A stretch of 41,178 nucleotides of DNA. It comes from Clostridia bacterium (GTDB lineage Bacteria > Bacillota > Clostridia > Oscillospirales > Acutalibacteraceae). Shown piece after piece: positions 52 through 16,409 of the stretch (its first letter is position 1; each line of letters begins with the position of its first letter). The stretch covers positions 1 to 41,178 of the forward strand of contig JAFXBF010000024.1 of the NCBI GenBank assembly GCA_017516745.1, written 5' to 3'. The translations under genes and the position numbers were made by a program. Under the pieces are notes generated by a model, which ran no database searches, was not told the DNA's origin, and saw nothing but the letters and a program-made list of their open reading frames with translations.

Positions 52-127
52 GGCCCGTTGGTCAAGTGGCCTAAGACTCCGGCCTCTCACGCCGGCAACA
101 GCGGTTCGAATCCGCTACGGGTCACCA
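52..127 (+). tRNA. tRNA-Glu (CTC)
   Basis: This is a complete cloverleaf. The acceptor GGCCCGT pairs with ACGGGTC, the anticodon stem is CCGGC/GCCGG, and the loop CTCTCAC gives anticodon CTC. The T-arm is GCGGTTCGAATCCGC and the CCA is encoded. CTC reads GAG codons. Confidence 0.93.
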
Positions 128-187
128 TATTTGACTTCTTGCTTCTTTGAAGCTTGAGTATATAATTATGTGCCACGGTGCATAACA

Positions 188-303
<116 letters not shown>

Positions 304-309
304 ACAATA

Positions 310-331
310 AGCCGGACAAAATTGTCCGGCT
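310..331 (+). terminator. Hairpin after 5S rRNA (weak terminator or processing site)
   Basis: AGCCGGACAA pairs perfectly with TTGTCCGGCT around a two-base loop 6 bases after the 5S gene. There is no U-tract downstream, so it may be a processing or pausing signal rather than a true terminator. Confidence 0.5.
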
Positions 332-395
332 GAATTGATAACATCAGCGTTTCGCTGATTTGATATAGTTTAGCATTAAGCTAAACGCTTTATAT
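332..395 (+). repeat. Short palindromes separated by TTGATATA
   Basis: Two small hairpins, ATCAGCG-TTT-CGCTGAT and GTTTAGC-ATTA-GCTAAAC, are separated by TTGATATA between the 5S and tRNA-Asn genes. They share the layout of the larger palindrome array at 508-655, with short stem-loops joined by an A/T-rich GATAT-containing spacer. They look like members of one intergenic repeat family. Confidence 0.5.
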
Positions 396-471
396 GCCCT
401 AATAGCTCAGTCGGTAGAGCACGCGGCTGTTAACCGCGGTGTCACAGGTTCGAGTCCTGTTTGGGGCGCCA
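396..471 (+). tRNA. tRNA-Asn (GTT)
   Basis: This is a complete tRNA. The acceptor GCCCTAA pairs with TTGGGGC, and the anticodon stem CGCGG/CCGCG encloses the loop CTGTTAA, giving anticodon GTT. The T-arm is ACAGGTTCGAGTCCTGT, and CCA is encoded at 469-471. Confidence 0.93.
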
Positions 472-2349: not shown

Positions 2350-4878
2350 TTATGCGGTCTCAACACTGTTTGCTTTTTGAAGTCCGTATTTTTCTATGGC
2401 GTTTTCACGCATTTTGTATTTAAGGATTTTACCTGCGGCATTCATCGGGAAAGAGACAACAAAGTCAATGTATTTCGGAACCTTATGGCGAGCCATATTA
2501 TCCATAATATATTGCTTCATTTCTTCTATAGTCATTTCTACGCCTTCTTTGAGAATAACACAAGCGCAAATTTCTTCACCGTACTGTTCATCGGGTACAC
2601 CGATAACCTGAACGTCATTTACCTTCGGATGAGTATAAATAAATTCTTCAATTTCCTTGGGATAAATGTTTTCACCGCCACGGATGATCATATCCTTAAG
2701 TCTGCCTGTGATACGGTAGTTGCCGTCTGCCGTTCTGCAGGCAAGGTCGCCCGTGTGAAGCCAACCGTCTTTATCAATTGTAGATGCAGTAGCCTTGGGC
2801 ATTTTGTAATAGCCCTTCATAATGTTGTAGCCACGTGCAACAAATTCACCGGTAACCTCGTCAGGACAGTCTTCACCGGTTTCGGGGTTAACAATTTTAC
2901 ACTCAATTTCGGGAAGTGCACGGCCGACTGTTGCAACACGAACCTCCAACGGGTCATCTGTTGAACTCATTGTGCAGCCGGGTGAAGCTTCGGTCTGTCC
3001 GTAAACAATGGTGATTTCCTTCATATTCATTTTATTAACAACGTCTTGCATAACAGAGATGGGGCAAGGACTGCCTGCCATAATACCTGTTCTCATATAT
3101 GAGAAGTCTGTTTTGGGGAAGTCCGGATGCTCAAGAAGAGCAATAAACATTGTCGGAACGCCGTGGAAAGCGGTAATTCTTTCGTTGTTGATGCAGGCAA
3201 GTGACGGCTTGGGTGAGAAGTAGGGGAGGGGGAATATTGTGCCGCCGTGTGTCATTGTTGCAGTCATGGCGAGCACCATGCCGAAGCAATGGAACATGGG
3301 CACCTGAATCATCATTCTGTCAGCAGTTGAAAGATCCATTCTGTCGCCGATGTTTTTGCCGTTATTAACTATGTTGTAGTGGGTAAGCATAACACCCTTT
3401 GGGAAGCCTGTTGTACCCGAGGTGTACTGCATATTACATACGTCATTTACGTCAACCGTAGCTGCAATTCTGTAGACCTCTTCAACGGGAACCTCGGAGG
3501 CTCTTGCAATAGCCTCATCCCAGGTAAGGCAACCTTTTTTCTTGAAGCCGACTGTAATAACGTTTCTCAGGAACGGAAGTCTCTTTGAGTGAAGAGGCTC
3601 GCCGGGTACTGTGTTTTCAAGCTCGGGACAAAGCTGACCGATTATTTCGTTGTAGTTTGAATCTCTCCAGCCGTCAATTAAAATAAGCGTATGAGTGTCG
3701 GACTGCTTGAGCAGATATTCAGCTTCTGCAATTTTGTATGCGGTGTTCATTGTAACAAGCACGGCACCGATTTTTGTTGCTGCCCAGAAAGCAATATACC
3801 ACTGAGGAACGTTCGTTGCCCATACAGCGACATGGCTGCCGGGCTTTACGCCCAATGCAAGGAAGGCTCGGCAGCACTCGTCAACGTCATCACGGAATTG
3901 TGAATAAGTCCTTGTATAATCAAGCGTTGTGTATTTGAAAGCGTATTGATCGGGAAATTCCTCAACCATTTTATCAAGCACCTGCGAGAAGGTCTTTTCA
4001 ATAAGAGTCTCCTTTTTCCAGATGTAGTTGCCTGTATGTGCCTTGTTCCAGAAAAGGTTTTTCTTGCCTCTTGAGGTGTTGCCGAAGCGAGCCATAAAGC
4101 TTACGTAGTGAGAGAAGATGATTTCCATATCGTCGAGCTCAGGCATCCATTTGGGGTCCCATTCGATAGATGCGTAGCCGTTATAGTTAACGGACGTAAG
4201 AGATAACACAACCTCGTCAATGGGAAGCTCGCCTTCACCGATAAGACAAAACGTGAGAGAGCCGTCTTCACAAACTGCATCTTTAACGTGTACATGCTTT
4301 ACGTATGCGCCTAAGTTTTTGATTGTAATTTCCGGCTCTTCTTTAGCTATAAAGTACGTTGAGTAAACGTCCCACAATGCGGCAAGACTGTCGCAGGCGA
4401 AGGTGTTAAGCACTTCAAGCAGCCTTGCCGAGTCTGCAAAAATGCCTGCCGTTTCAACGATGATTGTAACACCCAGCTTCTCGGCCTTGGGGATTATTGC
4501 GGAAAGAACGCTTATAACCTCGTTTTTCTGTGTGTCGTAATCTGCGCCTGTGTCAGTTGCCTTGATGCGCACGTAAGGGATATGAAGAGTACAGGCGATC
4601 TCAAGGCATTTATCAAGCTCTTTTGTGAAAGCCTCTCTGTCCTCTACACAGGCAGGGTTTGCAAGGGTATCAATACAAGGAATTCTCAAATTCTTCTCGT
4701 ACATATTTCGGACTGTTGCCTGAGCAGATGTTGAATAAAATGCACCGTTTTTTTCGTTGAAGGAAGAGTTGTTGATATTATGGAGCTCAATACCGTTGAA
4801 GCCTTGCTTTTCTGCTATATGGCAGAATTCATCCCATGAATATCCGTGCCAACCCTTGGTTGAAAAAGAAAGCTTCAT
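2350..4878 (-). CDS. Sugar-isomerase-like TIM barrel fused to AMP-forming acyl-CoA synthetase
   Basis: This is an 842-residue two-domain protein. Residues 1-270 resemble the xylose isomerase-like/AP-endonuclease-2 TIM barrel, with candidate metal ligands E142 (VETAG), D170 (LWDVYST), H197 (KHVHVKD) and E239 (IEWD). Residues 290-842 are a complete ANL-family acyl-CoA synthetase: YTSGTTGFPKG (485-495), YGQTE (626-630), TGD (709-711), GRLKDMIIRGGENIYP (725-740) and the adenylation lysine K817 in NAAGKILK. The acid is therefore activated by ATP to an acyl-AMP and then a CoA thioester. It lies 5 bases after the isopropylmalate-synthase-like gene, under the T-box read as Leu-specific. From this I infer that isovalerate, the leucine carbon skeleton minus carboxylate, is the substrate. 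The role of the barrel domain is unknown. The start ATG at 4878 is preceded by GAGGAG. Confidence 0.85.
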   Translation of the reverse strand: MKLSFSTKGWHGYSWDEFCHIAEKQGFNGIELHNINNSSFNEKNGAFYSTSAQATVRNMYEKNLRIPCIDTLANPACVEDREAFTKELDKCLEIACTLHIPYVRIKATDTGADYDTQKNEVISVLSAIIPKAEKLGVTIIVETAGIFADSARLLEVLNTFACDSLAALWDVYSTYFIAKEEPEITIKNLGAYVKHVHVKDAVCEDGSLTFCLIGEGELPIDEVVLSLTSVNYNGYASIEWDPKWMPELDDMEIIFSHYVSFMARFGNTSRGKKNLFWNKAHTGNYIWKKETLIEKTFSQVLDKMVEEFPDQYAFKYTTLDYTRTYSQFRDDVDECCRAFLALGVKPGSHVAVWATNVPQWYIAFWAATKIGAVLVTMNTAYKIAEAEYLLKQSDTHTLILIDGWRDSNYNEIIGQLCPELENTVPGEPLHSKRLPFLRNVITVGFKKKGCLTWDEAIARASEVPVEEVYRIAATVDVNDVCNMQYTSGTTGFPKGVMLTHYNIVNNGKNIGDRMDLSTADRMMIQVPMFHCFGMVLAMTATMTHGGTIFPLPYFSPKPSLACINNERITAFHGVPTMFIALLEHPDFPKTDFSYMRTGIMAGSPCPISVMQDVVNKMNMKEITIVYGQTEASPGCTMSSTDDPLEVRVATVGRALPEIECKIVNPETGEDCPDEVTGEFVARGYNIMKGYYKMPKATASTIDKDGWLHTGDLACRTADGNYRITGRLKDMIIRGGENIYPKEIEEFIYTHPKVNDVQVIGVPDEQYGEEICACVILKEGVEMTIEEMKQYIMDNMARHKVPKYIDFVVSFPMNAAGKILKYKMRENAIEKYGLQKANSVETA

Positions 4879-4883
4879 AGTTA

Positions 4884-6287
4884 TCAGTTCTCCTCAAAAA
4901 TAATCTTGTTGATAGCGTTGATATATGCCTGGATACTTGCGCCGATAATGTCTGTTGAAATGCCCTTGCCTGCATAAAGCTTGCCGTTTGAACGGAGTCT
5001 TACAATAGCGGAGCCGACAGCTTCTCTGCCCTCGGTAACGGATTGAATCTGGAAATCGTCAAGCTCGTAATGGTGGCCTAAAATCTGCTCAATGGCGTTG
5101 AATGCGGCATCAATGGGGCCGTCACCGATGGCAATGGCGTTTTTCTCCTGCTCGTCCTTTTCCAGAGTAATCTGAGCGGATGAATTTATAATGTTACCCG
5201 AGTTGATAACGTAGTTAATGAGCTTGTATGAAGGTGTAACCTGAAGGGCACTTGTAGCAACAATGGCATCAAGCTCTTTGTTTGAAACAGGTTTTTTCTT
5301 TGCAAGAGCCTTGAAGGCTTCGTAAACCTTTGCGTTGTCATCCTCTGAAAGGTCATAGCCCAGCTTTTTAACAGCGTTTGCAACAGTCTGAGCGTCATCG
5401 TTTTCCGTAAGGTTAAATTCCGAGTAGGGAACTGTAACGGAGGTGTCGTCTGCTGTAGGTTTGCCGTCTGTAATATTGGAAACCTGAGAAATAATTCTTG
5501 AAAATTCCGTGTAGTTAAGGTCAGCGTTAATTCCTAATTTGTCGCCGCTGTTTCTTATGATGTTGGAAACTGTAAGAAGCGGAGCGATTCCAATATTGCT
5601 GCCGCTTGCTGCCTTTATTTCGTCTGCACCTGCTGCGAGAGCCATCATTGAAGCGGCTGCGGAGCAACCGTTTTTATTGTCGCACATTACGCCAAGCTTA
5701 ACGTTTTGTAATGCGGGAACGTTTTCTTTGGTTTCTTTAATGAAGCTCACAAAAGTATCGGGGAGCATAGATGCTTCGTCATCGCAGATTGTGACGGTTT
5801 TTGCGCCTGCATTGATGGCTGTGTTAATTGCCTCGTAAAGAAAATCCTTTTCAGCTCTTGTTGCGTCAAGTGCAACGAACTCAACGTCACTGCAAAGTGA
5901 AGCAGCTTTCTCAACAAGTGAGGTGATAAGCTCAAGCATTTTAGGTGCTTTTTTGTGGCAAACGTATTCCATCTGAACAGGGGAAAGAGGAAGAGCAACA
6001 GAAAGACGGGGCTTGGAGGCAGAAGAAATTGCGTTCCATGCGTTGTCAACGCCCTGCTCAGTCATACCTGTGCATACACTCATTGTGCTGTTTTTCAAAA
6101 AAGCACAGATTGTTTTCAGAAGGAGAGTATCGATTTTGACGTTTTCAATCACAGGGAATTCTACAACCTGAACCTTTGCGCTTTCAAGAAGTCTTGCGAT
6201 TTCAACCTTTTCTTTAAAGCTGAGAGATGTGTCCTTTGATTGTGATTTAAGAACAACGGTACGGTCTGCAATAATGATTTTTCTCAT
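4884..6287 (-). CDS. Isopropylmalate-synthase-like protein with degenerate active site and intact leucine-regulatory domain
   Basis: The 467-residue protein is colinear with LeuA-type 2-isopropylmalate synthase but lacks catalytic residues. The family start pattern FDTTLRDGEQ reads ADRTVVLKSQ (residues 7-16), so the catalytic Arg and the metal-binding Asp are Val12 and Leu13. The HxHND metal motif is MCDNKNG (201-207), losing both His. The middle keeps a family-like segment (DATRAEKDFL, 141-150). The C-terminal LeuA dimer/regulatory domain, about residues 345-465, is well kept, with GDGPIDAAFNAI and GKGISTDIIGASIQAY. It is the first gene after the Leu T-box, followed by the acyl-CoA synthetase fusion. 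I infer a leucine-sensing or scaffold role rather than synthase activity; binding of leucine is unproven. Automated annotation would probably call it leuA. Confidence 0.8.
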   Translation of the reverse strand: MRKIIIADRTVVLKSQSKDTSLSFKEKVEIARLLESAKVQVVEFPVIENVKIDTLLLKTICAFLKNSTMSVCTGMTEQGVDNAWNAISSASKPRLSVALPLSPVQMEYVCHKKAPKMLELITSLVEKAASLCSDVEFVALDATRAEKDFLYEAINTAINAGAKTVTICDDEASMLPDTFVSFIKETKENVPALQNVKLGVMCDNKNGCSAAASMMALAAGADEIKAASGSNIGIAPLLTVSNIIRNSGDKLGINADLNYTEFSRIISQVSNITDGKPTADDTSVTVPYSEFNLTENDDAQTVANAVKKLGYDLSEDDNAKVYEAFKALAKKKPVSNKELDAIVATSALQVTPSYKLINYVINSGNIINSSAQITLEKDEQEKNAIAIGDGPIDAAFNAIEQILGHHYELDDFQIQSVTEGREAVGSAIVRLRSNGKLYAGKGISTDIIGASIQAYINAINKIIFEEN

Positions 6288-6341
6288 TTTACTCGTCCTT
6301 TCGTAAAATAAATAAAGTAATGTGATTGTTTGAAGAAAATA

Positions 6342-6376
6342 AAAAACCTGAGGTCAAAGCACTATGACCTCAGGGA
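6342..6376 (-). terminator. T-box-controlled terminator (Leu leader)
   Basis: On the minus strand CCTGAGGTC pairs with GACCTCAGG, followed by a T run. It lies just after the T-box sequence and before the isopropylmalate-synthase-like gene. It is the terminator that the antiterminator conformation would prevent. Confidence 0.88.
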
Positions 6377-6612
6377 CGAATTTCAAATCCGCGGTACCAC
6401 CCCGGTTACTGCAAAAGCAGTCACTCATTAAGACTCTATAAAGTCTGTAGCCATGATAACGGGGCGTCCGTAGCTCCTTACATGCCAAAAGCGGTTGGGG
6501 AGCTCTGCTCCGGAACGAGACCGAATTTTTGTAACAGATTGACTTGCACCTGCCGTCAACTCTCTGAACTGCCGTACCAAAAAGACGTAATTCCTTCGTA
6601 GCATTTAACAAA
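6342..6612 (-). promoter_or_regulatory. T-box riboswitch, specifier CTC (Leu)
   Basis: Minus-strand features in order are a Stem I with AGAGAG bulge and GGCAGGTGCAAG distal loop, the T-box TGGTACCGCGG (complement of 6389-6399) and a terminator. The specifier was placed by comparing the three leaders in this window. Six bases before the conserved GAG at the Stem I base lies CTC (complement of 6517-6519), a leucine codon. The shared spacing in all three leaders supports this reading. Uncharged tRNA-Leu should switch on the two downstream genes. Confidence 0.85.
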
Positions 6613-6623
6613 TATTGAAGAAA

Positions 6624-6652
6624 ATGATATCACCAAAACGAATTTTTGTCAA
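6624..6652 (-). promoter_or_regulatory. Promoter of the Leu T-box operon
   Basis: On the minus strand TTGACA (complement of 6647-6652) and TATCAT (complement of 6624-6629) are 17 bases apart. The promoter faces away from the Ile T-box promoter about 70 bases further right, so the two leaders are divergently transcribed. Confidence 0.8.
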
Positions 6653-6722
6653 CAGTTTTTTGCGATTTTGTTTAATGTTTATGCTTGGCTTTTGTTGGAA
6701 ATGATTTTTTTGCCAAAAACTA

Positions 6723-6751
6723 TTGACACAAAGCTATTGTTGTGCTAACAT
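6723..6751 (+). promoter_or_regulatory. Promoter of the Ile T-box transcript
   Basis: TTGACA (6723-6728) and TAACAT (6746-6751) are spaced by 17 bases, just before Stem I of the T-box leader. Confidence 0.75.
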
Positions 6752-6771
6752 ATATCAAAACAAAATATCGC

Positions 6772-7040
6772 AAATAAAAACTGTGACGAAGACGGTTGAA
6801 ACTATGGTCTTTCAGAGAGTTGGCGGTTGCTGCGAGCCAACAGTACCTTGTTTTAAGAACCTATCCCTTCCGAGTTGAAGAACCGAACGAATTTCCAGTA
6901 GGCTTCTTCCGAGTATGCTGCGTTAGTGCAAAGGGGTTGATAGACCCTTGAGAGGCAAGTTTTCTTGCAATTTGAGTGGTACCGCGGATTTTATATTCGT
7001 CTCAAAGAGAAACGTAAGAGTTTCTTTTTGGGGCGTTTTT
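6772..7040 (+). promoter_or_regulatory. T-box riboswitch, specifier ATC (Ile)
   Basis: Visible elements are a Stem I base with GACGAAGA, AGAGAGTTGGCGGTTGC bulge and distal loop, the T-box TGGTACCGCGG (6977-6987) and a terminator. The codon six bases before the Stem I GAG (6872-6874) is ATC (6863-6865), an isoleucine codon. Uncharged tRNA-Ile is expected to allow read-through into the XRE-cupin-acyl-CoA synthetase gene at 7084. Confidence 0.83.
6998..7040 (+). terminator. T-box-controlled terminator (Ile leader)
   Basis: CGTCTCAAAGAGAAAC pairs along its full length, with G-T pairs, with GTTTCTTTTTGGGGCG and is followed by five T. The 5' arm follows the T-box, as in standard T-box attenuators. 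Confidence 0.88.
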
Positions 7041-7083
7041 ATTTGCGTTTTTTGCTTAACTATTTTCCTGAAAGGGTGAGATT

Positions 7084-9369
7084 ATGGTTAACAATTCTTA
7101 TGAAAACAAATTAGTAGAGGTGTCCGAGCGAATTAAAGAGCTTCGCAACATTTACAACCTATCCGATGTTGAAATGGCTGAAAAAACAGGTGTAAGCCTT
7201 GAAGAATATCTTGCATATGAAAAAGGTATGGAAGATATGCCTTTCTCATTTGTTCATAAGTGCGCAATGGCCTTTGGCGTTGAGCTTACAGACCTTCTTG
7301 AGGGTCAGAGCGCAAAGCTCACAACCTATAACGTTACAAGACGCGGTCAGGGCCAGGTAACCGCTAATGAAGAAGGTATTCTCATTCAGAACCTTGCTCC
7401 AAAGTTCAAGAATAAGCTTGCTAATCCCTATTGGGTAAAATACGAATATTCAAGCGAGCTGCAGACAAAACCGATTGAGGTTACAACTCACTCCGGTCAG
7501 GAATTTGACCTTGTTGTCAAGGGCTCTCTTAAAATCCGTGTCGGCGACCACGTGGAAATTCTTCACGAGGGCGACAGTATATTCTATAACAGCTCAATTC
7601 CTCACGGTATGATAGCTGTTGACGGTGAGGACTGTTTGTTCCTTGCTATGGTTATGGCTGAAGACGAAAAGCTTGCAGATAACCATATGAGCACTGTCAA
7701 TACAGGCAAATCCACCGCAGAAGAAAAGCTTATCTGCGATAAATTCATTACAACAACGGTTGATGAAAACGGTGTTTGTAATCATATTAAGTTCAATAAC
7801 GAAGATAAATTCAACTTCGCATTTGATGTTATTGATGAAATCGGCAGAAACTATCCCGAGAAGGTGGCTATGATACATATCGCAGAGGATATGACAGAGC
7901 GTAAATTCACCTTTAAAGATATAAAAGAATATTCTTCACAGGCAGCAAACTATTTTAAATCCTTAGGCATCAAAAAAGGTGACAGGGTTCTTCTTGTGCT
8001 AAAACGCAACTATCAGTTCTGGTTTGCTATCCTCGGTCTTCATAAGCTCGGTGCAATTGCAATCCCTGCGACAAATCAGCTTGTTGTTCACGATTATGAA
8101 TACCGTTTCAATGCAGCCGGTGTAAGTGCAGTTGTAGTTACTGCAGACGGTAAAGCAACCGATTACATTGACGAGGCTCAGAAAAACTGTCCTACCCTTA
8201 AGACGAAAATTGTTGCTAACGGCTCAAAAGAGGGCTGGCATAATTTCGATGAAGAGTTCGGTCTTTTCAGCAGAAGATTCGTTCGTGAGGCTGATTCAGC
8301 CTGCGGTGATGACCCGATGATTATGCTCTTCACCTCGGGCACAACGGGATATCCGAAAATTGCGGCTCACAGCCATAAATATCCTTTGGGACATTTCATT
8401 ACGGCTAAATACTGGCACTGCGTACAGCGTGACGGCGTTCATTTCACAATTTCGGAAACAGGCTGGGGCAAGGCACTGTGGGGTAAGCTTTACGGTCAGT
8501 GGCTTTGCGAGGGCTGTGTATTCGTATATGACTTTGAGCGCTTTGATGCTTCAAAGATTCTTCCGATGTTTGCAAAATACAACATCACAACCTTCTGTGC
8601 ACCGCCCACAATGTACAGAATGCTTATCAAGCAGGATATTTCGCAATACGATTTATCCTCAATAAAACACGCAACTACTGCCGGTGAAGCTCTTAACCCG
8701 GAGGTTTTCAAGCAGTTTGAAAAAGCAACGGGCTTAAGAATTCACGAGGGCTTCGGTCAGACCGAAACAACCCTTTCCATTGCAAACCTTAACGGCACGA
8801 AAATCAAAATCGGTGCTATGGGTAAGCCTACACCGCTTTATGATATTGATGTTGTTGACCCTGACGGCAATTCCGTTGCAGACGGTGAAACCGGCGAAAT
8901 CGTTGTAAGATTAGGCGATAAAAATCCGTGCGGACTCTTCCTGGGCTATTATATGGGCTCTTATGTGGATGAGGAAAAAACCGGGGAGGCTATGCACGAC
9001 GGCCTTTATCACACCGGTGATACCGCCTGGCGTGATGAAGACGGATATCTCTGGTACGTCGGCCGAGTTGATGACGTTATCAAATCATCAGGCTACCGTA
9101 TCGGCCCGTTTGAAATAGAAAACGTTATTATGGAACTTCCGTATGTTCTTGAATGCGGTGTTTCCGCTGCTCCCGATGAGGTTCGTGGTCAGGTTGTCAA
9201 AGCAAGCATTGTTCTTACAAAGGGCACGGAGCCGACGGAGGAGCTCAAGAAAGAAATTCAGGAATACGTCAAGAAAAATACAGCTCCCTATAAATATCCG
9301 AGAATTGTTGTCTTCAGAGATGAGCTTCCGAAAACAATCAGCGGAAAAATCATGAGAAACAAGCTTTGA
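7084..9369 (+). CDS. XRE-cupin-acyl-CoA synthetase fusion (candidate 2-methylbutyrate-CoA ligase)
   Basis: The 761-residue protein has three parts. Residues 15-73 are an XRE-type helix-turn-helix (LSDVEMAEKTGVSLEEYLAY). Residues 100-192 are a cupin barrel (GQEFDLVVKG, HEGDSIFY, PHGMIAV). Residues 235-761 are an AMP-forming acyl-CoA synthetase of the medium-chain (MACS) type, with FTSGTTGYPK (416-425), GWGKALWGKLYGQW, GFGQTE, the YVGRVDDVIKSSGYRIGP hinge region and lysine K755 in ISGKIMRNKL. The start ATG follows GAAAGGGTG. It is transcribed alone from an Ile T-box leader, with a separate promoter before the next gene. From the specifier I infer 2-methylbutyrate, the isoleucine skeleton, as substrate. 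XRE-cupin proteins are normally stand-alone regulators, so this may combine sensing, DNA binding and catalysis; that is inference. Confidence 0.88.
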   Translation: MVNNSYENKLVEVSERIKELRNIYNLSDVEMAEKTGVSLEEYLAYEKGMEDMPFSFVHKCAMAFGVELTDLLEGQSAKLTTYNVTRRGQGQVTANEEGILIQNLAPKFKNKLANPYWVKYEYSSELQTKPIEVTTHSGQEFDLVVKGSLKIRVGDHVEILHEGDSIFYNSSIPHGMIAVDGEDCLFLAMVMAEDEKLADNHMSTVNTGKSTAEEKLICDKFITTTVDENGVCNHIKFNNEDKFNFAFDVIDEIGRNYPEKVAMIHIAEDMTERKFTFKDIKEYSSQAANYFKSLGIKKGDRVLLVLKRNYQFWFAILGLHKLGAIAIPATNQLVVHDYEYRFNAAGVSAVVVTADGKATDYIDEAQKNCPTLKTKIVANGSKEGWHNFDEEFGLFSRRFVREADSACGDDPMIMLFTSGTTGYPKIAAHSHKYPLGHFITAKYWHCVQRDGVHFTISETGWGKALWGKLYGQWLCEGCVFVYDFERFDASKILPMFAKYNITTFCAPPTMYRMLIKQDISQYDLSSIKHATTAGEALNPEVFKQFEKATGLRIHEGFGQTETTLSIANLNGTKIKIGAMGKPTPLYDIDVVDPDGNSVADGETGEIVVRLGDKNPCGLFLGYYMGSYVDEEKTGEAMHDGLYHTGDTAWRDEDGYLWYVGRVDDVIKSSGYRIGPFEIENVIMELPYVLECGVSAAPDEVRGQVVKASIVLTKGTEPTEELKKEIQEYVKKNTAPYKYPRIVVFRDELPKTISGKIMRNKL

Positions 9370-9390
9370 TTTATATATAAAAAATTACTA

Positions 9391-9419
9391 TTGACTTTTC
9401 AATATAATTGTGGTATCTT
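9391..9419 (+). promoter_or_regulatory. Promoter of the Val T-box operon
   Basis: TTGACT (9391-9396) and TATCTT (9414-9419) are 17 bases apart, right after the first fusion gene and before the second T-box. The long downstream operon therefore has its own promoter. Confidence 0.7.
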
Positions 9420-9424
9420 TGAGT

Positions 9425-9697
9425 GAGTTGAATATTAAAGGCGTTGAAGAAAAGGGCACGGTATACCGAGCTTTCAGAGAAATGACGGTCGGTGCAAGTC
9501 ATAGCAAGGTTTCCGGTGTTTGTAGTTTCCGAGCCGGGAGGAAGAAAGGCGTTTGTGCTCAGTAGAACCTCTCCGTGATTGCTGCGTAAATGCATAGAGG
9601 TTGACAGACCTTGAGAGGGGCAGTTCTTACTGCAATTTGAGTGGTACCGCGGGTTAGCTATAACTCGTCTCAAAGAATATCTTTGGGACGGGTTTTT
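9425..9697 (+). promoter_or_regulatory. T-box riboswitch, specifier GTA (Val)
   Basis: The leader has a Stem I with an AGAGAAATGACGGTCGGTGCAAG bulge and distal-loop region, CTCAGTAGAACCTCTCC in the middle, the T-box TGGTACCGCGG (9642-9652) and a terminator. Six bases before the Stem I GAG lies GTA (9522-9524), a valine codon. It would place the second fusion, the VOR complex and the aminotransferase under control of uncharged tRNA-Val. Confidence 0.82.
9665..9697 (+). terminator. T-box-controlled terminator (Val leader)
   Basis: CGTCTCAAAG pairs with CTTTGGGACG (one G-T pair) and is followed by GGTTTTT. It lies between the T-box and the ribosome binding site of the second fusion gene. Confidence 0.88.
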
Positions 9698-9730
9698 ACG
9701 TTTTGTCCCATAAAACAGGAGGATAAATCA

Positions 9731-12022
9731 ATGGAGAAAATGACGGGTCTTGATTATAAAATCAAGGAAATGGCCGCCAGAATCAGAGAGCTTCGTGAAA
9801 TTGAAGGGTATACCGCTGTTCAGATGGCGGAGAAAACAGGCGTTTCCGAAAGTGAATATCTTGCTTGCGAAAACGGTGAAAGCGACCTTAACTTTGCTTT
9901 TATTTACCGTTGTGCATTGGCATTCAACGTTGACGTTTCAAGTATCATTGAGGGTAGCACACCCAAGCTTACAAACTATGTTTTCACAAAATCAGGCAAG
10001 GGTCAGAAAATTGAAAAAGCGCACGGTATGACATATTTCAACCTTGCCGCAAAATTCAAAAACAAAATTGCCGAGCCTCTTTTTGTTGAAGCTACATACA
10101 GCGAAGAAAACCAGAACAAGGATATTGAGCTTACGTCTCACGACGGTCAGGAGCTTGATATTGTTATTGAAGGCAAGCTCAAGGTTCAGGTTGGCGAACA
10201 CTCGGAAATTCTCGGCCCCGGCGACAGCATATATTACGACTCGCTTACTCCTCACGGTATGATTGCCGTTGACGGTAAGGATTGTACCTTCTACGCTATC
10301 GTTCTTAATCCGTCAGGTGAGCCTATCCCTGAGCTTCAGCCTGCAAAAACCGTTAAAGATACAAAGTCGGCAACGGTTAAGGATACCAAAGAGCGTATTT
10401 ACAAAAATTATGTTGATGTTGTTGAAAACGAAAACGGAACTCCGACATCAATTAAATTTAAAAATACGGAAAAGTTTAATTTTGCTTTTGACCTTGTAGA
10501 TGAGCTTGCAGACAAAGAGCCGGAAAAGCTTGCAATGCTTCACATCTCACGTGATAAAACAGAAAGACGAATCACATTTAAGGATATGAAAAAGGGCTCT
10601 GCTCAGGCAGCTAACTATTTCAAATCCCTTGGTATTAAAAAAGGCGACAGAGTTATGCTCGTTCTCAAGCGCCATTATCAGTATTGGTATGCTATGATTG
10701 GCCTTAATAAGCTCGGTGCCGTTGCAATTCCCGCACCTAATCAGCTTCAGGAGCACGACTTTGAGTACCGTTTTCAGGCGGCAGGCGTAAAGGCTATTCT
10801 TTGCACTGCAGATGGTGATACTGCCCATCAGGTAGATTTGGCTGCCAAAACCTGTCCTTCACTTGAACACAAAATTATTGTCAACGGTGAAAGGGAAGGC
10901 TGGAGAAACTTCGACGAGGAAAGAGTTCTTTACAGCACTCACTACGAAAGAGCCGAGAATGCTCCCGGCGGAGATGACCTTATGCTTATGTTCTTCACAT
11001 CGGGCACAACAGGCTATCCGAAGATTGCAGCTCACAACTATAAATATGCTTTAGGTCATTTCCATACGGCAAAGTATTGGCACAATGTTGACCCCGACGG
11101 TCTTCATTTTACAATTTCCGATACGGGCTGGGCTAAGTCAATGTGGGGCAAGCTTTACGGCCAGTGGCTTTGTGAGGCGGCAACCTTCGTTTACGACTTT
11201 GACAGGTTTGATGCAGCAGATATTTTACCGATGTTTGCAAAGCATCATATCACATCGTTCTGCGCACCGCCGACGATGCTCAGAATGATGATAAAGCAGG
11301 ATATTTCAAATTACGATTTCTCATCTGTCAAGCATATGACAACGGCAGGTGAGGCTCTTAACCCCGAGGTTTACCGCCAGTTTGAAAAAGCAACAGGTCT
11401 TCAGATTCTGGAGGGCTTCGGTCAGACCGAAAGCACAATGATTATCGGCAATATGACCGGCGCAGACCATAAAATCGGCTCAATGGGTAAACCTGCTCCG
11501 ATTTATGACGTTAAGCTTGTTGATAACGATGGCAATGAGGTTCCCGTCGGTGAAAACGGCGAAATCGTTGTCAACGTCAAGGACGGCGCTCCCTGCGGCT
11601 TGTTTACTGGCTATTATAACGATGAAGCCAAAACCAAAGAAGTCTGGCATGACGGCTTCTATCATACCGGTGACGTTGCTTGGCGAGATGAAGACGGCTT
11701 CTATTGGTACGTCGGCCGTGTTGATGATGTTATCAAATCCTCCGGTTACCGCATCGGCCCGTTTGAAATTGAAAGCGTTATTATGGAGCTTCCTTACGTT
11801 CTTGAGTGCGGTGTTTCAGCCGCTCCCGATGAGGTACGTGGTCAGGTTGTAAAGGCAAGCATAGTTCTTGTCAAGGGCACGGAGCCGACAGAAGAGCTTA
11901 AAAAAGCTATTCAGCAGTACGTTAAGGAGAAAACTGCTCCTTACAAATATCCGAGAATTGTTGTATTCAGAGACGAGCTTCCGAAAACAACAAGCGGTAA
12001 GATAATGAGAAACAAATTATAA
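9731..12022 (+). CDS. XRE-cupin-acyl-CoA synthetase fusion (candidate isobutyrate-CoA ligase)
   Basis: This 763-residue protein is a paralogue of the protein at 7084, with the same order: helix-turn-helix (about 17-72), cupin (about 105-195), a linker with repeated VKDTK units, then a MACS-type acyl-CoA synthetase (FTSGTTGYPK, GWAKSMWGKLYGQW, GFGQTE, K757 in TSGKIMRNKL). The open frame runs upstream into the T-box terminator, so the start is the ATG at 9731 after AGGAGG. The last 100 residues are almost identical to the paralogue at the protein level, while the acyl-pocket region differs (GWAKSMWG against GWGKALWG). It is the first gene of an operon with VOR and branched-chain aminotransferase genes under a Val T-box. 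I infer isobutyrate, the valine skeleton, as substrate. Confidence 0.88.
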   Translation: MEKMTGLDYKIKEMAARIRELREIEGYTAVQMAEKTGVSESEYLACENGESDLNFAFIYRCALAFNVDVSSIIEGSTPKLTNYVFTKSGKGQKIEKAHGMTYFNLAAKFKNKIAEPLFVEATYSEENQNKDIELTSHDGQELDIVIEGKLKVQVGEHSEILGPGDSIYYDSLTPHGMIAVDGKDCTFYAIVLNPSGEPIPELQPAKTVKDTKSATVKDTKERIYKNYVDVVENENGTPTSIKFKNTEKFNFAFDLVDELADKEPEKLAMLHISRDKTERRITFKDMKKGSAQAANYFKSLGIKKGDRVMLVLKRHYQYWYAMIGLNKLGAVAIPAPNQLQEHDFEYRFQAAGVKAILCTADGDTAHQVDLAAKTCPSLEHKIIVNGEREGWRNFDEERVLYSTHYERAENAPGGDDLMLMFFTSGTTGYPKIAAHNYKYALGHFHTAKYWHNVDPDGLHFTISDTGWAKSMWGKLYGQWLCEAATFVYDFDRFDAADILPMFAKHHITSFCAPPTMLRMMIKQDISNYDFSSVKHMTTAGEALNPEVYRQFEKATGLQILEGFGQTESTMIIGNMTGADHKIGSMGKPAPIYDVKLVDNDGNEVPVGENGEIVVNVKDGAPCGLFTGYYNDEAKTKEVWHDGFYHTGDVAWRDEDGFYWYVGRVDDVIKSSGYRIGPFEIESVIMELPYVLECGVSAAPDEVRGQVVKASIVLVKGTEPTEELKKAIQQYVKEKTAPYKYPRIVVFRDELPKTTSGKIMRNKL

Positions 12023-12041
12023 TTCATAAGAGGTGATTAAG

Positions 12042-12704
12042 GTGCAAAGCAAGCGTATAACGTTATTCGCAGGTCATTACGGCTCGGGCAAAACAAACAT
12101 AGCGGTAAACTTCGCTTTCTATCTTAAAAATCTCGGTAAGGATGTTGTCGTTGCAGACCTTGATATTGTTAACCCTTATTTTCGCACAAGAGACAGTATT
12201 GACGAGCTGACTAAGGCAGGAATACGTCTTATATCCTCGGCGTTTGCTTCATCCAACGTGGATTTACCTGCGTTGCCCCAGGAAGTTTATTCAATTTTTG
12301 ACAAACAGGGAGAAAGTGCTATAATGGATATCGGCGGCGATGACCGTGGCGCTTATGCTTTAGGCCGTTATGCCGATTACATCAAAAACGAGAACGACTA
12401 TGAAATGCTTTTCGTTTTTAATAAGTACAGACCTCTTACTCCTACGGCAGAGGATGCTCTTGAAATTATGCGGGAGATAGAAGCGGCCTGTAAAATCAGC
12501 TTCACCGCCATTGTTAACAATTCCAACCTTGGTGAAATTACAACAGCAGAAGATGTTTTAAGCTCTGTTGAGGAGGCGGAGAGGTTAAGTGAAATTTCTC
12601 AGCTTCCCGTAAAAATGACAACGGTAACGGCGAATTTAGTTAATAATCTCAACGGAAAGATTTCAAACCTGTTTCCGCTGACTTTACAAAATAAGATAGT
12701 ATAA
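12042..12704 (+). CDS. ParA/MinD-like P-loop ATPase of unknown role
   Basis: This is a 220-residue P-loop protein with Walker A GHYGSGKT (residues 11-18), a Walker B-like DLDIVNPYF segment, and the MDIGGDDRGAYAL and FVFNKYRPLT segments expected of SIMIBI-class ATPases. The lysine typical of the deviant Walker A (KGGxGKT) is missing. I prefer the GTG at 12042, spaced 6 bases from AGAGGTGA, over the GTG at 12033 that lies inside that site. It lies between the acyl-CoA synthetase and the ferredoxin genes in the Val operon. A role in iron-sulfur or cofactor assembly for the oxidoreductase is possible but is only inferred from position. Confidence 0.75.
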   Translation: MQSKRITLFAGHYGSGKTNIAVNFAFYLKNLGKDVVVADLDIVNPYFRTRDSIDELTKAGIRLISSAFASSNVDLPALPQEVYSIFDKQGESAIMDIGGDDRGAYALGRYADYIKNENDYEMLFVFNKYRPLTPTAEDALEIMREIEAACKISFTAIVNNSNLGEITTAEDVLSSVEEAERLSEISQLPVKMTTVTANLVNNLNGKISNLFPLTLQNKIV

Positions 12705-12733
12705 GAGATTTTTTCTTGAATGGAGGCAAAAAA

Positions 12734-12940
12734 ATGGCAAAAGTAACATTCGCAGAAAATGTGTGCAAGGGCTGTGGCTTATGTGTCACGGTTTGTCCTA
12801 AAAAAATAGTAGAGCTTGACTCTGCAAAGCTTAATGCAAAAGGGCATCATCCTGCTCATTGTATTGATGAGAGTCAGTGCATCGGTTGTGCTTTCTGCGC
12901 AACAATGTGCCCTGACTGTGCAATTACGGTTGAAAGGTAA
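12734..12940 (+). CDS. 2x[4Fe-4S] ferredoxin subunit of the 2-oxoacid oxidoreductase (VOR delta-like)
   Basis: The 68-residue protein has two classical cluster motifs, CKGCGLCVTVCP and CIGCAFCATMCP. This matches the small ferredoxin-like subunit of VOR/KOR-type 2-oxoacid:ferredoxin oxidoreductases, which passes electrons between the thiamine-diphosphate centre and external ferredoxin. The ATG at 12734 follows TGGAGG; the earlier TTG in frame has no such site. It is 11 bases before the alpha-type subunit gene, so the four VOR genes form one translational block. Confidence 0.88.
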   Translation: MAKVTFAENVCKGCGLCVTVCPKKIVELDSAKLNAKGHHPAHCIDESQCIGCAFCATMCPDCAITVER

Positions 12941-12951
12941 GGTGAAAACAA

Positions 12952-14016
12952 ATGGGTGAGAAAGTATTGATGAAAGGTAACGAAGCTATTGCTGAAGCCG
13001 CAATCAGAGCAGGCTGTATGCATTACTTCGGTTATCCTATTACACCTCAGACAGAAATCGCTGCTTATATGGCAAAGCGTATGCCGAAGATTGGCGGTGT
13101 ATTCCTCCAGGCAGAAAGTGAGATTGCTGCCGTTAATATGGTTCTTGGCGTTGCCGCAACAGGTAAACGTGTTATGACGTCCTCGTCAAGCCCCGGAGTA
13201 TCTCTTAAGAGTGAAGGTATTTCATACCTTGCAGGCTCGGATCTTCCTGCTCTTATAGTTAATGTTCAGCGTGGCGGCCCCGGCCTTGGCGGTATTCAGC
13301 CTTCACAGTCGGATTATTTCCAGGCTGTTAAGGGCGGCAGCCACGGTGACTTCAAGAAGATTGTTCTTGCACCGTCATCGGTTCAGGAAATGGCCTCTCT
13401 GACTTCAACAGCATTTGACCTTGCAGATAAGTACAGAATGCCTGCCATGATTCTTGCAGACGGTACTATGGGTCAGATGATGGAGCCCGTTGAGCTGCCC
13501 GAGCCGAACGCAAAATCATTTGATAAGCCCTGGGCACTTACAGGCACAAAGGGCGAGAGAAAGCACAATATCGTCAACTCTCTTTACCTTAAGCCCGAGG
13601 AGCTTGAAAAGACAAACTTTGAGCGTTATGAGCGCTATAAGGAAATAGAAGAGAACGAGGTTCTTTACGAAGAGTACTTAATGGAGGATGCAGAAATCTG
13701 CGTTGTTTCTTTTGGCATCACAGCCCGTGTAGCCAAGAATGCAATCGTAGAAGCAAGAGCAAAGGGCATCAAGGTAGGTATGATTCGTCCTATCACACTC
13801 TGGCCGTTCCCCAACAAGGCTCTCAGAGCCGCTGCAGATAAATGCAAGGCATTTATTTCTGTAGAAATGAATATGGGTCAGATGATGGAAGATGTTCAGC
13901 TTGCAATCGAATGCAAGAAGCCCGTATATCTTTGCAACCGTGTAGGCGGTATGATTCCTTCCCCCGAAGAGGTTCTTGCAAAGATTGAAAGTGTCAATGA
14001 AGGAGGCGACAAATAA
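12952..14016 (+). CDS. vorB: 2-oxoacid:ferredoxin oxidoreductase, VorB/alpha-type subunit
   Basis: The 354-residue protein carries the pyruvate:ferredoxin oxidoreductase alpha-type domains: N-terminal [27 protein letters not shown], then [26 protein letters not shown] and [10 protein letters not shown], and a C-terminal domain II. It resembles 3-methyl-2-oxobutanoate (2-oxoisovalerate) oxidoreductase subunit VorB. With the next two subunits it interconverts branched 2-oxoacids and acyl-CoA plus CO2 with ferredoxin. In this context, between an acyl-CoA ligase and an aminotransferase under a T-box, the reductive carboxylation direction is more likely. Its stop TAA overlaps the next start by one base. 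Confidence 0.9.
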
Positions 14017-14774
14017 TGGCTGTTGTATTTGAAAAACCCAAGTCATTAACTGATGCAACTCTTCACTATTGCCCGGGTTGCACACACGGTATTATTCACA
14101 GACTTGTTGCCGAGGCAATTGATGAGCTCGGTATTCAGGGCAGAACAATCGGTGTAGCACCCGTTGGCTGCTCGGTTATGGCTTACGATTATTTTGATGT
14201 AGATTTTGTTCAGGCTCCTCACGGCAGAGCACCGGCTGTTGCAACAGGTGTTAAGCGTGCAGACCCTGAAAACAATATTGTATTTACATACCAGGGCGAC
14301 GGTGACCTTGCTGCTATCGGTACTGCAGAGACAGTTCATGCGGCGGCAAGAAGAGAAAATATTACGGTTATTTTCGTCAACAACGCTATTTACGGTATGA
14401 CAGGCGGCCAGATGGCTCCGACGACTCTTCCCGGTCAGGTAACCCAGACCTCTCCTTATGGCAGAGACGTTGAAACAGTAGGCTATCCCATCAAGGTCTG
14501 CGAGCTCCTTTCACAGGTAGACGGTGCGGTATATCTTGAAAGAGTTTCGGTTAACAACCCTGCAAACATCAAAAAGGCAAAGAAGGCAATTAAAAAGGCT
14601 TTCCAGAACCAGATTGAGGGCAAGGGCTTCTCACTTGTTGAGGTTGTTTCAACCTGTCCCACAAACTGGGGTATGACACCGGTAAAGGCACTTGAGTGGG
14701 TTGAGGAAAATATGCTTCCTTACTATCCTCTCGGTGTTTATAAAGATATCTATGCAGAAGAGGAGGCAAAATAA
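14016..14774 (+). CDS. vorA: 2-oxoacid:ferredoxin oxidoreductase, thiamine-diphosphate-binding beta subunit
   Basis: This is a 252-residue thiamine-diphosphate subunit. [16 protein letters not shown] near the N-terminus is the typical cysteine-containing start. The cofactor-binding signature is GDGDLAAIG followed by [17 protein letters not shown]. Substrate annotation as branched-chain type comes from the operon context; this subunit alone does not separate VOR from KOR. AAGGAGG lies inside the end of the preceding gene. Confidence 0.9.
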
Positions 14775-14775
14775 T

Positions 14776-15306
14776 ATGAGCTGTAATATTCTTTTTGCCG
14801 GCTTCGGCGGTCAGGGTATCCTTTTTGCAGGTAAATTTGTTGCATACAAGGGTCTTCTTGAAAATAAGCAGGTTTCCTGGCTTCCTTCCTACGGCCCTGA
14901 AATGCGTGGCGGTACAGCAAACTGCAGCGTTATCGTAAGTGATGAACCCATCGGTTCGCCAATCGTCAGCAATCCCGACGTTCTTGTGGCAATGAACCTT
15001 CCCTCGCTCGACAGATACGAAAACGAGGTCGTTTCCGGCGGTAAGATTTTTGTTGATTCAACACTTATTTCCCGTAAGGTTGAAAGAACGGATGTTGATG
15101 TCTACTACATTCCCGCAACGGAAATTGCAAACGAAAAAGGTATCAGTACACTTGCAAATATGATTATAACCGGCAAGCTTCTCAAGGAAGTTCCGTCACT
15201 CGGCTTTGACGGTATTGACGCACCCTTGGCAAAGGTTGTTTCTGCCCGCCATCAGGATCTTCTTGAGGTTAACAAAACAGCACTCAAGCTCGGCTATGAT
15301 TATTGA
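14776..15306 (+). CDS. vorC: 2-oxoacid:ferredoxin oxidoreductase, gamma subunit
   Basis: The 176-residue protein is of the POR/KOR gamma family, with [12 protein letters not shown] near the start and [18 protein letters not shown], both highly typical. The open frame extends upstream into the preceding gene, but the ATG at 14776 follows AGGAGG and gives the family's normal N-terminus. It completes a four-subunit VOR complex together with the ferredoxin subunit. Confidence 0.9.
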
Positions 15307-15332
15307 GATTAATTGAAAAGAGGTATTTTTCA

Positions 15333-16409
15333 ATGAGCTACGATTTTAAAATAGAAAGAACAACCGCTCCCAAGGCAAAGCCGGCAGACGAAAGCAAGCT
15401 CGGCTTCGGCAAAATCTTTACAGACCACATGTTCGTAATGAATTACGACGAGGGTCAGGGCTGGCACGACGGCAGAATTGTTCCCTACGGCCCGCTTTCT
15501 CTTGACCCGTCTTCAATGGTTTTCCACTACGCACAGGAGCTTTTTGAGGGCCTTAAGGCATACAGGGTTGCTGACGGCAGCATTCAGCTTTTCCGTCCCC
15601 AGAAGAACATTGAAAGAATGAACAATACCTGTGACCGTCTTTGCGTTCCTCGTATTGACCCCGACCTTGCACTTGAAGCTATCAAGGCAGTTGTTGACGT
15701 TGATAAGGACTGGGTTCCCCACAGCGACGGAACATCTCTTTATATCCGTCCGTTCATCATCGCAACAGATGCTTTCCTCGGCGTTCATGCTTCTCACAGC
15801 TATATTTTCTGCATTATTCTTTCACCTGTCGGCTCATACTACGCTAACGGTATGGATCCGGTCAAGATTTACATTGAAAGAGAATATGTCCGCTGTGTAA
15901 AGGGTGGTACAGGTATGGCTAAGGCAGGCGGTAACTACGCTGCATCCCTTATCGGTCAGGAAAAGGCAGACAGAATGGGCTATGCTCAGGTTCTCTGGCT
16001 TGACGGCGTTGAAAGAAAGTATATCGACGAAGTCGGCGCTATGAACGTTTTCTTTGTAATTGATGATGTTGTAATCACTCCCACCCTTGAGGACGGTAAC
16101 ATTCTTCCGGGTGTAACAAGAGCATCCTGTATTGAAGTTCTCAAGGCAAACGGCTACAAGGTAGAAGAAAGAAAGCTTTCTGTTGACGAGGTTAAAGAGG
16201 CCTACAAGGCAGGCAAGCTTACAGAGTCCTTCGGTACAGGTACAGCAGCTGTTATTTCACCTGTCGGTGAATATATTGACGGCGAGGAGCACCTCGTTAT
16301 CAACGATTCTAAAATCGGCCCTGTTGCTCAGTTCCTTTATGACGAGCTTACAGGCATACAGTGGGGCAAGAAGGAAGATAAGCTGGGCTGGATTGTTAAG
16401 GTTAACTGA
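15333..16409 (+). CDS. ilvE: Branched-chain amino acid aminotransferase
   Basis: This is a 358-residue fold-type IV PLP enzyme. The cofactor lysine is K197 in AKAGGNYAAS, followed by ERKYIDEVGAMN and the phosphate-binding ESFGTGTAAVISP region. It transfers amino groups between glutamate and the 2-oxoacids of Val, Leu and Ile. The ATG at 15333 follows AAAAGAGG. As the last gene of the Val T-box operon, it would convert the oxoacids made by VOR into amino acids, which supports a biosynthetic direction for the operon. Confidence 0.95.
   Translation: MSYDFKIERTTAPKAKPADESKLGFGKIFTDHMFVMNYDEGQGWHDGRIVPYGPLSLDPSSMVFHYAQELFEGLKAYRVADGSIQLFRPQKNIERMNNTCDRLCVPRIDPDLALEAIKAVVDVDKDWVPHSDGTSLYIRPFIIATDAFLGVHASHSYIFCIILSPVGSYYANGMDPVKIYIEREYVRCVKGGTGMAKAGGNYAASLIGQEKADRMGYAQVLWLDGVERKYIDEVGAMNVFFVIDDVVITPTLEDGNILPGVTRASCIEVLKANGYKVEERKLSVDEVKEAYKAGKLTESFGTGTAAVISPVGEYIDGEEHLVINDSKIGPVAQFLYDELTGIQWGKKEDKLGWIVKVN

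Follow-up and report, generated by a model that had tools for sequence, protein, structure and literature searches.

A T-box-controlled locus proposed to make valine, isoleucine, and leucine from branched short-chain acids in uncultured Clostridia

We analyzed a stretch of 41,178 nucleotides from a Clostridia bacterium (contig JAFXBF010000024.1 of assembly GCA_017516745.1; hereafter the window) that carries three T-box-controlled transcription units, each encoding an AMP-forming acyl-coenzyme A (CoA) synthetase. We assign a probability of about 0.83 to the reading that this locus is a complete, tRNA-controlled system for the synthesis of Val, Ile, and Leu from branched acids and that it replaces the acetohydroxyacid and isopropylmalate pathways. 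The operon anatomy, the specifier codons, the canonical genes that were not found, the lost catalytic residues of a LeuA-like protein, and the patterns of conservation are all observed. From these we infer the substrates, the direction of the VOR-type oxidoreductase, and the sensing of leucine. Isobutyrate, 2-methylbutyrate, and isovalerate from the gut would each be converted to the CoA thioester by a dedicated AMP-forming ligase, one shared VOR would reductively carboxylate the branched acyl-CoAs to 2-oxoacids, and IlvE would transaminate these to Val, Ile, and Leu. Each ligase would be transcribed only when the tRNA of its own product is uncharged.

T-boxes turn genes on when the cognate amino acid is scarce. 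A preliminary description of the window had placed three of them here, with specifiers CTC, ATC, and GTA, each six bases 5′ of the Stem I GAG. The leaders are borne out by searches with the Rfam model RF00230 (Table 1), and the codons are read at these positions in the sequence and are kept for each gene in relatives. Two of the three leaders, those of the Ile and Leu units, exceed the gathering score of 93 bits. The Val leader scores below it and is therefore unlisted in the Rfam scan of the window, yet it is recovered at E = 3.9e-17 in a search of the whole genome. That search returned eight T-boxes in total, and in the five outside the window the specifier agrees with the amino acid expected from the downstream gene. 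The GAG-based rule gives TTC for the PheS leader and ACC for the ThrS leader; codons read by eye are TGG before a TrpB-like gene, TGC before CysE/CysS, and TTC before a PaaK-like ligase. The PaaK-like gene alone was matched to family models, the other four names being taken from the translations.

The assignment of codon to gene is retained in related loci. Among distinct leaders, ATC is found in 69/70 of those preceding Ile ligases, GTA or GTC in 90/96 of those preceding Val ligases, and CTC in 34/35 of those preceding LeuA operons; a third, separate ligase clade shows ATC in all 15 leaders. These counts cover the window and loci L043–L142 and L173–L192, with identical stretches removed and near-identical ones kept, and they omit three T-boxes (two distinct) with no assigned gene nearby. 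They were obtained with a second specifier rule, which adds the lower Stem I helix to its score; this rule makes no use of the expected codon and was written after the results of the first were known. Before removal of identical stretches it gave 75/76, 96/102, and 36/37 for Ile, Val, and Leu, and the first, simpler rule gave 69/76 for Ile, Val codons in 87/117 (third clade included), and 31/37 for Leu. The exceptions are few: one Ile leader reads GCT with a low score (L115), and one Leu leader is unassigned (L067). The remaining Val leaders comprise four that are unassigned (L046, which is cut by a contig end, L055, L106, and L058, which reads GTA by the cruder rule), one that reads AAT (L136), and one that reads ATC (L119). 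The last, at 67.9% identity, looks like an Ile paralogue counted under Val. The specifier codon is thus conserved within each ligase clade, in line with the earlier proposal of tRNA-specific control in each branch.

We then consider the canonical genes of branched-chain amino acid synthesis, which the preliminary description had not seen in the window. Their absence extends, as expected, to the whole genome (2.89 Mb, 97.16% complete), where no ilvC, ilvD, leuB, or separate leuC was found and no ilvB candidate exceeds its cut-off. The ilvC model gave a single 30-bit match, which was rejected after the protein was read as SpoVFA-like, and the ilvD/edd model gave no match. An aconitase model returned one 667-residue frame and no separate leuC (leuD was not searched by itself), and a model for isocitrate dehydrogenase (IDH) and LeuB returned one 408-residue IDH-like frame below the leuB cut-off. 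This frame carries an S-x-N-x-x-R stretch that we take to be of the isocitrate type. Two distant thiamine-pyrophosphate enzymes matched the ilvB model, both below cut-off, and were set aside; one of them adjoins genes read as IolE- and IolG-like (inositol). All five canonical-gene searches detected their targets in 14/14 control genomes.

A related tendency is seen across the order. With the Val ligase as a proxy for the module, a full-length match at 66% identity or more, a threshold that we set on the listing of matches, defines 34 carriers among 245 genomes, the genome of the window included. Across these 245 genomes ilvC and leuB tend to be missing where the Val ligase is present: with relatedness ignored, ilvC exceeds its cut-off in 3/34 carriers and 114/211 others (Fisher p = 4e-7), and leuB in 2/34 and 140/211 (p = 9e-12). 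Eighteen of the 34 carriers are at least 90% complete, and ilvC is present in 2 of these 18. Two partial matches were left out (G171, 75% identity over residues 24–665, and G185, 68% over residues 377–790), and neither genome has ilvC or leuB above cut-off. Within the family of the window, ilvC is found in 0/4 genomes with the Val ligase and 15/15 without; two of the latter (G189 and G227) encode a full-length ligase at 60–61% identity. A genome of the window's own genus (G209) has ilvC, leuB, and canonical leuA on one contig.

In 20 stretches taken around Val or Ile ligases, the three units are found again in several arrangements and not always complete; at loci L056 and L057 the Val ligase stands without other module genes. 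In two genomes that keep ilvC (G098 and G178), the vor genes are preceded by an Ile T-box and an Ile ligase, and the stretch contains no Val ligase (Table 1). This arrangement is possibly an ancestral state in which Ile alone was made from 2-methylbutyrate. In the 80 best loci from the longer list that a scan of named genomes produced, the relatives are labeled Clostridia, Clostridiales, Oscillospiraceae, Ruminococcaceae, Ruminococcus, or Firmicutes, and nearly all are metagenome-assembled genomes (MAGs). The hosts, where stated, are goat, sheep, dairy cattle, roe deer, water deer, and water buffalo; many entries state none. The top locus comes from sheep rectum, with a 100% match to the Val ligase.

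The Ile T-box controls a single gene, that of the ligase. The Val T-box leads into an operon ordered as ligase, ParA/CbiA-like ATPase, VorD, VorB, VorA, VorC, and IlvE, and the claim that it encodes a complete VOR together with IlvE stands: VorB and IlvE exceed curated cut-offs, and the other subunits are assigned by Pfam matches or by reading of the translation. VorA (beta) and VorC (gamma), although matched by Pfam, fall below the cut-offs of the NCBIfam models that they match. VorA contains a GDGD...NN stretch, presumably the motif of this subunit. Relatives have the ATPase gene in the same place, after the ligase gene and before the vor genes. At the end of the contig (window positions 52–468) are genes for tRNA-Glu, 5S rRNA, and tRNA-Asn.

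Table 1. Positions of the features discussed (in the window unless a locus is named)
Feature	Position	Strand	Evidence or remark
Leu-branch acyl-CoA synthetase with N-terminal AP_endonuc_2-type TIM barrel	2350..4878	-	PF01261, PF00501, PF13193
LeuA-like pseudoenzyme, 467 residues	4884..6287	-	PF00682, PF08502; alignment to solved isopropylmalate synthases
T-box leader, Leu operon	6369..6608	-	Rfam RF00230, 100.3 bits; specifier CTC 6519-6517
T-box leader, Ile ligase	6774..7007	+	Rfam RF00230, 106.6 bits; specifier ATC 6863-6865
Ile-branch ligase: XRE helix-turn-helix (HTH), cupin, AMP-forming acyl-CoA synthetase	7084..9369	+	
T-box leader, Val operon	9435..9675	+	RF00230, 77.9 bits; specifier GTA 9522-9524
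Val-branch ligase: XRE-HTH, cupin, AMP-forming acyl-CoA synthetase	9731..12022	+	probable start ATG 9731 (ribosome-binding site)
ParA/CbiA-like P-loop ATPase	12033..12704	+	PF01656
VorD-type ferredoxin subunit, 68 residues	12734..12940	+	read from translation; matched in relatives
VorB, 2-oxoacid:ferredoxin oxidoreductase subunit	12952..14016	+	NF005507, 558 bits (cut-off 399)
VorA, thiamine-diphosphate subunit	14016..14774	+	PF02775
VorC, gamma subunit	14776..15306	+	PF01558; start ATG 14776 from ribosome-binding site
IlvE, branched-chain aminotransferase	15333..16409	+	NF009897, 497 bits (cut-off 307); start ATG 15333 from ribosome-binding site
Third ligase clade	L173, L176-L179, L181-L189, L191		
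Ile ligase and vor genes without Val ligase	L174 5973-11641; L180 5895-12768		
PaaK-like ligase and ACT-domain-pair region	L195:8190-9952	-	contig 13 of the window's genome

These enzymes might instead serve to degrade amino acids for energy: transamination and oxidation by VOR would yield acyl-CoA, and branched fatty acids would be released. VOR and IlvE can work in both directions, and fermentation of amino acids is common among gut Clostridia. However, control by T-boxes activates the genes at amino acid scarcity, the ligases belong to the type that consumes ATP and forms AMP, and key genes of the usual biosynthetic route were not found in the genome. We consider operation in this direction highly improbable and retain synthesis from branched acids as the function of the module.

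Both the Ile and the Val ligase have MbcS (NF047394) as their best NCBIfam match (433 and 440 bits, respectively) and are classed as MbcS relatives, not as MbcS, since they fall below its equivalog cut-off. The solved structure nearest to the Val ligase is 3etc (617.6 bits), that of MacsMa. Both known enzymes prefer 2-methylbutyrate: for MacsMa of Methanosarcina acetivorans (3ETC) this is given in PMC10455477, and for MbcS of Staphylococcus aureus PMC10026030 gives a KM below 10 µM with 2-methylbutyrate and also with isobutyrate, and above 500 µM with isovalerate. By analogy, the poor use of isovalerate by MbcS would fit a Leu branch that has another ligase. We propose that the Ile ligase is a 2-methylbutyryl-CoA synthetase and the Val ligase an isobutyryl-CoA synthetase. 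Both differ from MbcS and MacsMa in an N-terminal XRE-HTH and cupin addition (about 7084–7770 and 9731–10430). These parts are well conserved, with mean identities of 63% and 70%, and are perhaps sensor-like, making each protein a fusion of regulator and enzyme.

The likeness to MbcS, which PMC10026030 connects with branched fatty acids in S. aureus, also raises the alternative that the ligases chiefly supply branched acyl-CoA primers for membrane fatty acids, with amino acids as a by-product. The Ile, Val, and Leu T-boxes and the VOR/IlvE operon fit amino acid supply instead, and we judge a mainly lipid-directed role to be improbable; a secondary lipid role may exist beside the supply of amino acids.

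The ligases themselves separate according to the controlling codon. In a FastTree phylogeny of 84 of 123 ligases (two from the window, 12 from L173–L192, and 70 chosen at random; 78 labeled), the Ile/Val specifier label changes once, compared to a mean of 22.5 for shuffled labels, and none of 500 shuffles is as low. Seven positions in the ligase core (65, 132, 278, 281, 293, 380, and 383 in 3etc chain numbering) separate 70 Ile from 42 Val sequences at >85%, two sequences having been omitted. The Val-type residue is larger or longer at 278 (Ala for Gly), 281 (Met for Leu), 293 (Ala for Gly), and 380 (Met for Leu) and smaller at 383 (Gly for Ala). These substitutions would fit a smaller acid substrate without proving one. 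Of the seven positions, MacsMa agrees with the Ile type at three (132, 278, and 383) and with neither type at the other four (65, 281, 293, and 380). The third clade, which is 59–63% identical to the Val ligase and stands mostly alone behind its own T-box, has Ile-type residues in 9/9 sequences at 132, 278, 281, and 380, the Val-type residue in 6/9 at 293, and a mixture at 65 and 383.

The Leu unit is built differently. The preliminary description had each T-box leading into a ligase gene; the ligase gene does come first in the Ile and Val units, but in the Leu unit a LeuA-like gene comes first and the ligase gene follows five bases further on. The pair is tightly kept: in 48/48 matches with room to see the downstream gene (44 distinct), the Leu ligase lies 5–12 bases (between match ends) 3′ of the LeuA-like gene. 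The ligase, which we propose to be an isovaleryl-CoA synthetase, has catalytic core motifs that are invariant in 22 rows, and its best NCBIfam match, at 692 bits against a cut-off of 832, is a general family of fatty-acid CoA ligases. Its TIM barrel (4023–4878, minus strand) is less conserved than its ligase part (46% versus 77% identity). The likely metal ligands of this barrel, chosen by analogy with the fold family, are conserved only in part (E142 in 33/35, H195 in 22/35, and E239 in 8/35) and are not used for any claim.

The LeuA-like protein shares the barrel and the regulatory LeuA_dimer domain, of the leucine-binding type, of 2-isopropylmalate synthase (PF08502, 117 bits; cut-off 24.9) and stands under a Leu T-box. 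It differs in the loss of catalytic and metal-binding residues, in an inverted pattern of conservation, and in having no LeuB or separate LeuC partner that we could find. Where solved isopropylmalate synthases have DTTLRDGEQ, SCED, and AHCHND in the alignment, the window protein has DRTVVLKSQ, VALD, and VMCDNK, respectively. In a set of 46 sequences, one from the window and 45 from other loci (42 of the 46 distinct, with partial and interrupted matches excluded), the first His of the metal-binding HxH pair is present in 1/46, the second in 0/46, and the complete pair in 0/46, and the catalytic Glu is present in 0/46 (two gaps). The Arg-Asp pair was counted in a 35-row alignment, because mechanical alignment to the solved structures is gappy around this motif; Asp is retained in 0/35 rows and Arg in 3/35. 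An RDG.Q string occurs in one of the 46 sequences, at residue 177, unrelated to the active site. As a control, RDGNQ and HxHNDRG are kept in 12/12 canonical LeuA proteins of the same order. Judged by these residues, the LeuA-like protein cannot be an ordinary isopropylmalate synthase.

This bears on the possibility of a classical leucine route that starts from isobutyrate-derived 2-oxoisovalerate and relies on an active LeuA, with aconitase and isocitrate dehydrogenase in place of LeuCD and LeuB. A LeuA homologue does stand behind the Leu T-box, and the aconitase-length and IDH-like genes adjoin each other on contig 21. Against this, the HxH pair and the catalytic Glu are missing from all 46 sequences and the Asp from all 35 aligned rows, and changes of R80 alone (R80A and R80K) are listed in PMC10464499 as destroying the activity of the Mycobacterium tuberculosis enzyme. 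In addition, some carriers of the Val ligase have no good leuB/IDH match, such as G206 (84% complete; best E = 1.7e-8) and G163 (87%; 7e-7). A LeuA search of the window's genome returned the window gene (in two pieces) and one weak 23-bit match, and nothing else. The classical route is scarcely credible here, and a working isopropylmalate branch in the Leu operon was ruled out on the grounds that the catalytic residues are gone and that no leuB or separate leuC was found. Synthesis of Leu from isovalerate remains the preferred reading.

The conservation of the LeuA-like protein points to a different function. Its mean pairwise identity is 70% in the LeuA_dimer domain and 45% in the barrel; in the 12 canonical LeuA proteins the corresponding values are 40% and 71%, with the ratio to be compared within each set only, because the two sets differ in depth. 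With the regulatory domain conserved and the active-site residues lost, selection has kept the regulatory end and released the active site. Most likely, the catalytically dead LeuA would sense leucine and feed back on the adjacent isovaleryl-CoA ligase. A new catalytic activity, or a role as a structural partner only, is a less likely but appreciable alternative to sensing. Parts of the barrel stay conserved, with S102, M106-E107-Y108, K113, E136, and D141 invariant in 35 rows, but the regulatory domain is where conservation is highest, opposite to the pattern in a working LeuA, and a second acid ligase in the same genome, paired with an ACT-domain protein, suggests a common theme of feedback.

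This second case is a candidate fourth branch, for Phe. On contig 13, a T-box with specifier TTC (C13:113022-113271, 106 bits) precedes a PaaK-like phenylacetate-CoA ligase (533 bits; family cut-off 646) and then a protein with a pair of ACT domains, the same logic as in the branched-acid module. The same contig encodes an indolepyruvate oxidoreductase above cut-off, at a distance of about 55 kb. Prephenate dehydratase is also present in the genome, and phenylalanine therefore has two possible routes. We tentatively extend leucine sensing to a scheme in which each acid ligase would be governed twice, by its T-box and by a product-sensing domain that provides feedback: the dead LeuA as a regulatory subunit for Leu, the ACT pair for Phe, and perhaps the XRE-cupin part for Ile and Val.

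Several observations weigh against the overall reading. The scores of the Ile and Val ligases are only half of the 850 bits set as the cut-off for an MbcS equivalog. Three of the 34 carriers of the Val ligase (G014, G089, and G192) keep ilvC, so the replacement is not universal, and the association across genomes ignores relatedness. VorB is missing within 3.5 kb of the Val ligase in 12/79 matches with enough downstream sequence (12/75 distinct); the operon is therefore not always intact. Leucine binding by the LeuA_dimer domain is predicted from its conservation. Folding of Stem I, a check on the specifiers, gave a divided outcome. RNAalifold on the Ile leaders recovers a covarying Stem I around the specifier loop, but a single-sequence fold of the Ile Stem I shows no such loop. 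For Val, RNAalifold yields the top hairpin only and thus no support for a specifier loop, and for Leu it yields most of Stem I without the lower helix beside the specifier.

For decades it has been known that rumen microbes use branched volatile fatty acids to make Val, Leu, and Ile, reportedly from tracer and culture studies by Allison, Peel, and Robinson. Their work on the carboxylation of isobutyrate, isovalerate, and 2-methylbutyrate, as cited in PMC7356843, involves the same precursors and products as the module proposed here and presumably the same chemistry. The module adds to these pathways the genes that probably encode them, with a separate ligase for each branch and control by the individual tRNAs, in Clostridia that are uncultured and known from MAGs. 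The RNA class and the logic of starvation-induced supply are shared with the branched-chain T-boxes of Firmicutes, as presented in PMC2494555 and PMC3766115, whereas the targets here are acyl-CoA synthetases and VOR instead of ilv/leu genes. Neither article uses the term "oxidoreductase" in its main text, and that of PMC3766115 does not contain "acyl-CoA". Among the matches listed from the open-licence literature, no title or abstract opening mentions T-box-controlled branched acyl-CoA ligases or a LeuA pseudoenzyme.

The module supplies candidate genes for every step of the route from branched acids to amino acids, and with ligases that are told apart by the controlling tRNA, the pathway becomes testable and predictable from genomes. 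If the LeuA-like protein does sense leucine, with catalysis lost and the regulatory domain retained, it would clearly exemplify the conversion of a biosynthetic enzyme into a sensor. More broadly, the module predicts gut Clostridia that depend on branched acids from other organisms, which bears on fiber digestion and on isoacid feeding.

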